Below are positions 27,370 through 40,598 of a stretch of DNA of 40,598 bases, one piece after another. The position numbers and the translations under genes were made by a program. Under the pieces are notes generated by a model. It was not told the origin of the DNA and searched no databases. It saw only the letters and a list, made by a program, of their open reading frames with translations. The first letter of the stretch is position 1. Every line of letters starts with the position of its first letter. This DNA is from Bifidobacterium breve (lineage in GTDB: Bacteria; Actinomycetota; Actinomycetes; S36-B12), in assembly GCA_945877545.1 (NCBI GenBank), contig CAMCSO010000006.1, positions 1 through 40,598 of the forward strand, written 5' to 3'.

Positions 27370-27383
27370 GTGCATGCACTTTA

Positions 27384-27408
27384 GGCCGCATGCAGATGGA
27401 CGGCGGGA
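27384..27408 (+). repeat. 25-bp dispersed direct repeat, copy A
   Basis: GGCCGCATGCAGATGGAC and the next 7 bases recur at 32129-32153 with one mismatch. It lies 15 bases after the vapC module 3 stop and just after the palindrome GTGCATGCAC. Possibly a recombination or insertion scar. Confidence 0.7.
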
Positions 27409-31462: not shown

Positions 31463-31936
31463 CTAAGCCGCTTGGATGTTTGACGCCTGCTTGCCCTTTG
31501 CCCCATTCGTTATTTCAAACGTAACCCTCTCCCCCTCCTTTAGCGTTTTGAAGCCCGGCATGTTGATCGCGGAGAAATGAACGAATACGTCCTCGCCGCC
31601 CTCATCGGGGGTGATGAAGCCAAAGCCCTTCGAGTCGTTGAACCACTTCACGGTTCCCATCGCCCCCTTGACGTTGCTGGGCTCGCCGACCGTCTCCTTG
31701 CACGAGGACTGCTCACCCTCGCAGGTACATGTCGTCTTCGTTCCGTCGTTCTCGCAGGTCCACACCTCAACTACTTGATCGGCTGTTCCCTCGGACGGCG
31801 CAGGTGCCGACACCGCAGGAGCAGCAGCGACCGCTGGGTCGGCTGCCGTCGTGCTGGAGCCGCAGCCGGACAGGAGCAGCGCCCCCGCCGCAGCGAGGCT
31901 GATCGCTAGGGCCGAGACCCTCTTCATTGAGCGCAT
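31463..31936 (-). CDS. Exported lipoprotein with a C-terminal cold-shock domain
   Basis: 157 residues from ATG 31936 (AGAGGA 8-9 bases upstream); ATG 31927 is an alternative. Residues 1-24 are a lipoprotein signal ([21 protein letters not shown] then C25). Residues 26-55 are an Ala/Pro/Ser linker. Residues 58-80 hold four cysteines (C61, C70, C72, C79) that could form two disulfides. Residues 93-157 are a complete cold-shock domain, [15 protein letters not shown], with RNP1 KGFGFI (103-108) and RNP2 VFVHF (117-121). CspA proteins are normally cytoplasmic RNA/DNA chaperones of about 67 residues. Here one continuous frame adds an export signal, so a surface nucleic-acid-binding role is inferred. 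All key aromatics are kept. Confidence 0.85.
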
Positions 31937-32338
31937 CGCGTGGTTCCTCTCATCGCATCCGGGTAGCGAACACTGACCGAGGTAGACTCTGCCATTGCGT
32001 CTCTCGGCAGGCAAGGCATGGGCACTCCCCTTACGGGATTAGCCGTACACCTGTTGAAGGTCTGCTGCATCCTCGTCCGGTAGGGCAACCAAGTGCTATT
32101 CGAATACCCGACAATCGCCGACACTTTTGGCCGCATGCAGATGGACAGCGGGATTCCGGAACGCACTGGCACTCAGCAACACTCATCCTGTTCGGGTCGG
32201 TTGTGGCATGTCACCTGCGACGTACCTTGGGATTTGGCCTGAGTTGACTCGACGTGAGATCTACGTGAGGCATCGCGGCATGAAGGATCGAGCGGGGAGG
32301 AATAGGATGGTCAGAGCGACCATTTCACGCCAACCCGC
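31937..32338. other. Intergenic region with a dispersed repeat
   Basis: No gene is supported. It contains the 25-bp repeat copy B (32129-32153) and, at 32294-32300, a strong ribosome-site-like GGAGG before ATG 32307. That ATG opens a frame of only 16 codons overlapping the next small ORF. Confidence 0.5.
32129..32153 (+). repeat. 25-bp dispersed direct repeat, copy B
   Basis: Matches 27384-27408 with a single mismatch (GACAGCGGGA versus GACGGCGGGA at the end). Confidence 0.7.
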
Positions 32339-34757: not shown

Positions 34758-34870
34758 AGACCTCCGTGTGCTCCTCGTTCCTGCGCTCCCGAAGTCGACC
34801 ACACGAGTTTCGAACGCCATTCAGTGCTGCCGAGAGGATCAGCTGGATCCGATCAACGCGGCCCGCGCGC
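34758..34870. repeat. Direct repeat, short copy (vapC 3' end plus flank)
   Basis: This 113-bp block matches 36072-36247 in two parts, AGACCTCCG..GCTCCCG and AAGTCGACC..GCCCGCGCGC, but lacks 63 bases found between them in the other copy. Its right end corresponds to the last codons (RAALIGSS, stop) of vapC module 4 read on the minus strand. Confidence 0.85.
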
Positions 34871-36071: not shown

Positions 36072-36247
36072 AGACCTCCGTGTGCTCCTCGTTCCTGCGC
36101 TCCCGTCGGGCTGTGGCGATCTGTGGACCCAAGCATGGTGAGGACCTACATCATCTGTTGTGGTCCCGAAGTCGACCACACGAGTTTCGAACGACACTAA
36201 GTGGCGCCGAGAGGATCAGCTGGATCCGATCAACGCGGCCCGCGCGC
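36072..36247. repeat. Direct repeat, long copy with 63-bp insert
   Basis: Same sequence as 34758-34870 but with 63 extra bases (36106-36168). The insert is bounded by TCCCG on both sides, so the short copy equals a precise loss of insert plus one TCCCG. The right part covers the 3' end of vapC module 4. Confidence 0.85.
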
Positions 36248-38572: not shown

Positions 38573-39223
38573 TTAAAAAGCCCTCACCGGACGGATGCCG
38601 AGCACGTTGTCCTTGTGGCCCCTGTAGTCCTGACTCCCACTGGGGAAGACCTGGTACCACGCGCTGCTGTCGTTGTTCTGCGAGGAACTCCAGTAGGTGC
38701 CCGACCCAAAACCGCCAACAATCTCCCGCTGCTTGTACAGCTGATTCAGTTCATCGCTAGAGGGCAGGAACCAATCATCCTTGCCACCACCGTTGTAGCT
38801 GGCCGCCGCCCATGCAGCGCCCGACGAGCACTCAGCCACGATCGCTTGTGTATTCGCCATACCGGAACCAATGCCCACACCCACAGCACGATCGATCCCT
38901 AGGTCAGTGTTGTCACACCACATGGCCGTCTGGTCTGCGCCTCCCATATTCCAACGGGCCGGGGCGGCCTCCAAGTACCTACCCCAGTCCTTCTCGGAAC
39001 CCGCGTCATAGAACACCACCCCACCAGCAGGGCCGGTATCACCAACGGCACAGTCGCCAATCCCATTCTCATCACACGTAAGGCCAGCAGCCTGCCTGTC
39101 AACAGAAACGGCAGGTGACGGCGCAGTTGTATTCCCGGTGATCGAGGTCGTCGCTCCACCGCAACCGGCGAGCACCAGACTGACAGCGAATGATGTAACG
39201 CACCTACCCAATGAAATCCTCAC
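38573..39223 (-). CDS. DUF1566/Lcl-domain lipoprotein (array member 2)
   Basis: 216 residues from GTG 39223, with GAAGGG 7-8 bases upstream; an in-frame ATG at 39238 is the alternative. Leader VRISLGRCVTSFAVSLVLAG-C21. Mature part: GDTGPAGGVVFYDAG, YLEAAPARW, GIGSGMANTQAIVAEC, DDWFLPSSDELNQLY, GTYWSSSQNN and VLGIRPVRAF, the hallmark order of Lcl C-terminal (DUF1566) domains in surface proteins, which adopt a C-type-lectin-like fold in related families. Probably a surface-bound binding protein. It lies 17 bases after array member 3, so they may form an operon. Confidence 0.85.
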   Translation of the reverse strand: MRISLGRCVTSFAVSLVLAGCGGATTSITGNTTAPSPAVSVDRQAAGLTCDENGIGDCAVGDTGPAGGVVFYDAGSEKDWGRYLEAAPARWNMGGADQTAMWCDNTDLGIDRAVGVGIGSGMANTQAIVAECSSGAAWAAASYNGGGKDDWFLPSSDELNQLYKQREIVGGFGSGTYWSSSQNNDSSAWYQVFPSGSQDYRGHKDNVLGIRPVRAF

Positions 39224-39240
39224 CTGGTTTCCCTTCATCC
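39027..39240 (-). repeat. Duplicated lipoprotein 5' block, copy A
   Basis: The SD, start, leader and first about 60 codons of array member 2 match those of array member 4 (40396-40598) closely, for example CACCAACGGCACAGTCGCC identical in both. Beyond this block the two genes share only domain-level likeness. Confidence 0.8.
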
Positions 39241-39987: not shown

Positions 39988-40584
39988 CTAGTTCGATGGT
40001 GACGTGTAAGTCCGCACCGGGCGGATAAGAAGAACGGAATAGGACTTGTCAAACGCGGCCACCGTCCCGTCTTCAAACTGCTGCCACCATGCCACGTCCT
40101 TATTCGAGTCGGAACTCCAGTAACCGACGGCAGAGCCTCCGTCGGCATCGCGACCAAAGCCTCCGATGACATCGCGCTCCGGGTATTCCCACAGGATGTT
40201 CAGTTCCTCTCTTGTCGGGAGGTTCCAGTCGGCTTTTTCTCCACCTGTGTAGGCCGCAGCGCGTGTCATACCATCTTCCCAACTGACCGCTTCGGGGTCA
40301 GTGTCATTCCCGGACCAACCCTTCGGAGCGACCTCGAGAATGGTTGCACCACCAGCACCCGGAACAACACTGATCACCGTTCCCCCACCCGTGCCGGTAT
40401 CACCAACGGCACAGTCGCCGATGCCATTCTCAGCACACATAAGGCCAGCGGCCATCCGTTCCATCGACGCCGCGGGCGACGGCGCAGCTGCACTCCCGGT
40501 CAACGAGGGCGTCCCTCCACCGCAACCGGCGAGCACCAGACTGAAAGCCAATGATGTAACGCACCTACCCAGTGAAATCCCCAC
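39988..40584 (-). CDS. DUF1566/Lcl-domain lipoprotein (array member 4)
   Basis: 198 residues from GTG 40584 with GAAGGG at the very edge of the window. Leader VGISLGRCVTSLAFSLVLAG-C21, almost identical to array member 2. Mature part: CAENGIGDCAVGDTGTGGGT, LEVAPKGW, KADWNLPTREELNILW, GYWSSDSNKDVAWWQQFEDG and LLIRPVRTY, a diverged Lcl/DUF1566 domain in which FLPSSDELN has become NLPTREELN. Probably exported and surface-bound. Paralogue of member 2. Confidence 0.82.
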   Translation of the reverse strand: MGISLGRCVTSLAFSLVLAGCGGGTPSLTGSAAAPSPAASMERMAAGLMCAENGIGDCAVGDTGTGGGTVISVVPGAGGATILEVAPKGWSGNDTDPEAVSWEDGMTRAAAYTGGEKADWNLPTREELNILWEYPERDVIGGFGRDADGGSAVGYWSSDSNKDVAWWQQFEDGTVAAFDKSYSVLLIRPVRTYTSPSN

Positions 40585-40598
40585 CCGGTTTCCCTTCA
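40396..40598 (-). repeat. Duplicated lipoprotein 5' block, copy B
   Basis: Counterpart of 39027-39240; it runs off the window at the ribosome-site end, so the duplicated block may extend further into the promoter. Confidence 0.8.

Follow-up and report, generated by a model that had tools for sequence, protein, structure and literature searches.

The window, that is, the whole 40,598-nt stretch of DNA analysed here, carries on its minus strand an uninterrupted frame (31936-31463; ATG at 31936, stop codon at 31465-31463) encoding a protein of 157 aa, in which a Sec signal ending in the lipobox LLSG-C is followed by an Ala/Pro linker, a four-cysteine segment and a complete cold-shock domain (CSD; PF00313). 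An earlier note on this DNA had described such a continuous frame, and its coordinates and parts were confirmed. The features are as follows, all on the minus strand, with residues numbered as in the window protein (P0001).

31463..31936, minus: complete coding sequence of the predicted lipoprotein-anchored cold-shock protein, 157 aa, from the frame and its homologues
31944..31951, minus: ribosome-binding site GAGAGGAA ahead of the ATG at 31936; in the homologues, a site resembling AGGAAC/GGGAAC has equal spacing
31865..31936, minus: predicted signal peptide, 24 aa, with the lipobox at its end, at the same position in 5/5 homologues
31862..31864, minus: codon of the putative lipid-attachment cysteine C25, invariant in the five homologues, with LspA in 5/5 genomes
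31778..31861, minus: Ala/Pro/Ser-rich linker, ~10 to 40 residues in the homologues, predicted disordered (pLDDT ~40)
31664..31777, minus: four-cysteine segment with invariant W, four C, TCTCEG and VKG, from the homologue alignment
31658..31660, minus: ATG in frame at the boundary of the CSD, found in the window genome alone and not conserved
31469..31660, minus: cold-shock domain PF00313 (Pfam), nearest to a betaproteobacterial CspA (81%, against 58% for the host CspA)
31613..31630, minus: RNP1, KGFGFI, of which KGFGF is invariant in the homologues
31574..31588, minus: RNP2, VFVHF, read in frame and from the homologue alignment

The CSD scored 104.6-106.4 bits against PF00313 (cut-off, 27), the sole above-cut-off Pfam match of the protein; the same search gave a weak match to CusF and found no family for the N-terminal 89 residues. 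AlphaFold2 modelled the CSD at pLDDT ~90, and Foldseek matched it to the cold-shock protein 3i2z (TMt 0.95). The four-cysteine segment was modelled as a beta hairpin and a short helix, at a confidence too low to read the cysteine pairing. The host genome (G000; 2.97 Mb, 307 contigs, 90.5% complete) encodes two more, ordinary CSD genes, on contigs C195 and C24.

Several other elements occur in the window. A secreted protein with a YHYH domain (PF14240; 32520-34046) lies upstream of and divergent from the CSD gene and is not its neighbour in relatives, and a 32-nt element is present twice at 94% identity (27377-27408 and 32122-32153), one copy being upstream of the lipoprotein-CSD gene. Short repeats at 27.2-27.4 kb raised the suspicion of a second copy of the gene, which proved not to be a CSD gene. 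A direct repeat of 227 nt (39011-39237 and 40372-40598, 84% identical), whose minus strand encodes a lipoprotein signal, represents a lipoprotein gene copied in tandem at the contig end, and an intergenic element (34758-34870 and 36072-36247; 34 nt at 100%, 89 nt at 92%) is duplicated near lipoprotein genes. In the related genome G084, a lipoprotein of a different family (L107, contig C157) bears a signal peptide nearly identical to that of the window gene, which suggests that the genus re-uses the starts of lipoproteins as modules.

Distribution of the fusion

Fusions in other genomes, which the earlier note had suggested looking for, were found: a query with the whole protein against 85 genomes of the family returned four more, in G082, G083 and G084 of the same genus (89%, 60% and 58% identical to the window protein, respectively) and in G007 of another genus (53%). 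The carriers are 4/5 genomes of the genus and one genome of the sister genus. In 5/5 fusions the signal, lipobox, Ala/Pro linker, four cysteines and CSD form one open frame, and the occurrence of this same frame in four other assemblies excludes a sequencing or assembly join, including the frameshift that had been named as a possible artefact. Invariant among the five are the lipobox G-C, W56, C58, C67, C69, C76, TCTCEG, VKG and the RNP motifs.

Searches queried with the Cys segment, which cover CSDs on this anchor, gave no further fusion in 166 genomes of the order, in samples of 395 genomes from the class and 397 from the phylum, or in viral contigs. Outside the family, relatives of the Cys segment were absent from the class and phylum samples and from viral contigs; none was found in Pfam, nor in the PDB (best E 0.056, fibronectin). 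One further scan of contigs for fusions recovered just the four known homologues, and inspection of 18 other CSD open frames in the family for a concealed signal peptide showed none, all of them being ordinary.

The intact members number only five and all come from assemblies derived from metagenomes, a point against the explanation favoured below. The homologue records, from separate assemblies, carry the isolate names HRSG-H1, MsH-01oct19, MaH-09apr19 and Loclat, which we take to be lake samples. Fusion-bearing public records (L059, L060, L061) are titled 'Bifidobacterium breve' with isolates that have environmental bin names, and the organism label looks wrong.

Origin of the cold-shock domains

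The window CSD is 81% identical to a cold-shock protein of Neisseria (that of N. meningitidis is PDB 3CAM), compared with 58% to the CspA of its own host. By identity and tree, the CSDs of G000/G082 and G083 group with betaproteobacterial proteins, that of G084 with alphaproteobacterial proteins (72%, support 100/98), and that of G007 with the actinobacterial group. In CSD trees of 64 columns only, with several long branches, a single clade of the fused CSDs was rejected (AU p = 0.002), and so was the grouping of the G083 and G084 CSDs (p 0.011). The G083 and G084 genes are nevertheless 83% alike in the signal and 72% in the Cys segment, and their synonymous divergence is lower before the CSD (28/91 sites) than within it (27/43; p 0.0006).

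These relationships indicate that the anchor and the Cys segment descend together, with at least one replacement of the CSD. One replacement, in G084 versus G083, is well supported, because the grouping of the CSDs is rejected while the signal, the Cys segment and the upstream synonymous sites stay close; a second, in G007 versus the beta type (p 0.04), is the weaker case. Nucleotide identity between G083 and G084 drops from 83% to 43% past RNP2, and a swap breakpoint inside the CSD was considered and set aside: bacteria all conserve the first half of the domain, and AU tests run for each half were weak; the drop therefore fits whole-domain and 3′-half replacement alike.

Binding, export and selection

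The best explanation of the gene, to which we give a probability of about 0.62, is that its product, tethered to the membrane, binds single-stranded nucleic acid outside the cytoplasm. RNP1 and RNP2 are intact and the contact residues KWFNKFFDFHFFK are all present in the window CSD, which supports nucleic-acid binding by the domain. At thirteen CSD positions that contact nucleic acid in the published complexes of B. subtilis CspB, 62/65 residues are kept between the five fused CSDs and the nearest cytoplasmic CSD, versus 177/256 at other aligned positions (Fisher p 2e-6); the contact sites are conserved in all CSDs, and therefore this value shows retention, not new constraint. The net charge, -1 for the CSD and -7 for the rest of the mature chain, counts against this explanation, as a protein that catches nucleic acid greedily would be expected to have a strongly basic surface; cytoplasmic Csps, however, are likewise acidic or neutral.

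An unlikely reading, though the best placed of the rivals, is that the exported CSD serves as a plain OB-fold scaffold for another ligand (protein, glycan or metal), for example as a trap for phage endolysin. OB folds are versatile, the CusF match could be read in this way, repeated CSD replacement would fit partner-driven change, and crystals of the phage endolysin PlyGRCS with CspC (8h1i, 8xyf) indicate that CSDs can bind other partners, an interaction called serendipitous in a reference as listed by PMC11396672. However, the CspB contact residues are kept above the rest of the domain, also in CSDs of different origin, and no phage or cell-wall genes are neighbours.

That the CSD is exported and membrane-tethered, as the nucleic-acid binder would require, is well supported by sequence. 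All five have a positively charged n-region, a hydrophobic core and a lipobox before a Cys within the first 35 residues; the lipobox match alone is weak, because the pattern arises in 9% of shuffled N-termini, and it is the conserved position in five genes that carries the argument. A ribosome-binding site precedes the lipoprotein ATG in 5/5 homologues, LspA (PF01252) and VKOR, the actinobacterial disulfide-forming enzyme, are encoded in 5/5 carrier genomes, and four invariant cysteines follow the lipid cysteine. The CSDs of G083 and G007 contain an extra cysteine pair (CDVFF...KSSC and VCFDI...VAPC), while 0/27 cytoplasmic CSDs of the family have any cysteine. In our reading of the models, the G083 pair would face across the last (beta4/beta5) hairpin, at its two ends, and the G007 pair is ~3 residues out of register, which makes its disulfide less certain than that of G083. 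Purifying selection (below) and the lack of an internal start in relatives likewise support export.

The latter point bears on a less probable alternative, which the earlier note had itself raised in part, namely that the CSD acts in the cytoplasm, either as a separate CspA made from an internal start at 31660 or as a full chain retained by an inefficient signal peptide. CSDs are otherwise cytoplasmic, and in the window an in-frame ATG coincides with the CSD start. However, this codon (31660-31658) is CTC in the 89% relative G082 and no start codon stands there in the other three, so that a start at the boundary is missing in 4/5 homologues, and the nearest purine run is spaced by 2 nt; being private, the ATG is therefore not evidence of a separate CspA. 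Moreover, the genome already holds its two ordinary CSD genes, and the conserved lipobox and the even number of added cysteines point outside.

Selection is evident between the window gene and G082, both over the whole gene (dN 0.055, dS 0.337, dN/dS ~0.16) and within the CSD (dN 0.055, dS 0.538, dN/dS ~0.10). What loss of constraint looks like is seen by contrast in a decayed copy of the Cys segment in the window genome (L048; G000:C69:2038-2160), which reads WTCAKDGEEATCT... frameshift ...SEADCECTVSKP.SVKGATGTVK and has lost the CSD. The same relic, adjoined by a small membrane protein gene, is found in G083:C280 (L050) and G084:C78 (L049); being common to three genomes of the genus, it indicates that the genus ancestor had at least two copies, one of which died. 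The trait is therefore dispensable, at least in that copy, and this counts against the favoured explanation. That a csp gene merely recombined into a lipoprotein gene and the short-lived, functionless product is drifting or decaying would suit the narrow and patchy distribution, the shared decayed copy and the modular re-use of lipoprotein starts (G084:C157, the same signal on another lipoprotein), but is very improbable given the overall dN/dS and the frames that remain intact in two genera, at 50-60% identity and with all the defining residues retained. The domain arrangement is real, conserved, selected and apparently undescribed.

Proposed mechanism and comparison with known systems

Based on these findings, we propose that the tethered nucleic-acid binder would act as follows. 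First, the protein would be exported by Sec, and Lgt and LspA would lipidate it and cleave before C25, yielding a diacylated lipoprotein that remains on the outside of the freshwater actinobacterium's cytoplasmic membrane. The flexible linker and the small four-cysteine segment, presumably disulfide-bonded, would then hold out the folded CSD, and the displayed domain could bind single-stranded DNA or RNA. Its likely role, which is speculative, would be the capture or retention of extracellular single-stranded nucleic acid on the surface of the cell, in adhesion or scavenging and possibly uptake.

The genomic context does not narrow this role, and the lack of a conserved neighbour pointing to a pathway counts against the proposal. 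No shared neighbour was found in the contigs read for all homologues, no gene adjoining the fusion in more than one genome, and the gene looks monocistronic. Close to the G084 gene lies a membrane protein similar to the one beside the decayed copy (E 3e-5), which is not present at the other homologues. Of the 85 genomes of the family, 69 encode ComEC, most of them lacking the fusion, and two of the five carriers (G082 and G007) gave no ComEC, so an association with ComEC was rejected. Of the exported, membrane-tethered, nucleic-acid-binding CSD put forward in the earlier note, the tether is well supported and the binding supported by the sequence, while nothing was found in support of the suggested roles in uptake, biofilm, phage defence or scavenging, there being no conserved neighbours and no tracking of the fusion by ComEC.

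A broader and more tentative reading is that a constant anchor has had its CSD swapped by recombination with beta- and alphaproteobacterial and actinobacterial csp genes, giving a surface receptor for single-stranded nucleic acid and a new exported class. If so, the cell would keep such an extracellular receptor while its binding module changes over time. The presence of CSDs of different bacterial groups on one anchor suggests that the activity, not the exact sequence, is kept.

CSDs belong to the most ancient and best-studied domains that bind nucleic acid, and in bacteria they are regarded as intracellular. Like CspA, CspB, CspC and CspE (PF00313), the window protein has a full CSD with RNP1 and RNP2 and the same fold, but those are free cytoplasmic proteins of ~65-75 aa without a signal, an anchor or a cysteine segment, whereas all three are present in its 157 aa. 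A conserved, lipid-anchored and cysteine-stabilised CSD would add a new place and a new job for the fold, and would offer a defined protein for testing how actinobacteria of the plankton encounter DNA or RNA outside the cell. ComEA, a membrane-tethered extracytoplasmic DNA binder, serves as a working analogy only: it binds double-stranded DNA through a helix-hairpin-helix (HhH) and sits within com genes, whereas the fusion has no HhH domain and no com genes near it in the contigs read, ComEC lying elsewhere.

In the open-access literature, no exported or lipoprotein cold-shock domain was found in bacteria, which agrees with the earlier impression that no system of this kind has been described. 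In Listeria monocytogenes, Zea was the first secreted RNA-binding protein to be reported from a bacterium (PMC6907008), and it shares with the window protein the Sec signal peptide and, as far as binding is predicted here, the association with nucleic acid outside the cell; however, Zea is released and has no known domain or lipid anchor, whereas here a recognised CSD sits on one. The closest functional precedent is provided by Staphylococcus aureus lipoproteins such as SaeP, which hold extracellular DNA on the Gram-positive surface (PMC6593408, which does not mention cold shock proteins) and differ in lacking a CSD. By analogy with these DNA-holding staphylococcal lipoproteins and with Zea, we prefer to see the window protein as tethering single-stranded nucleic acid at the surface.
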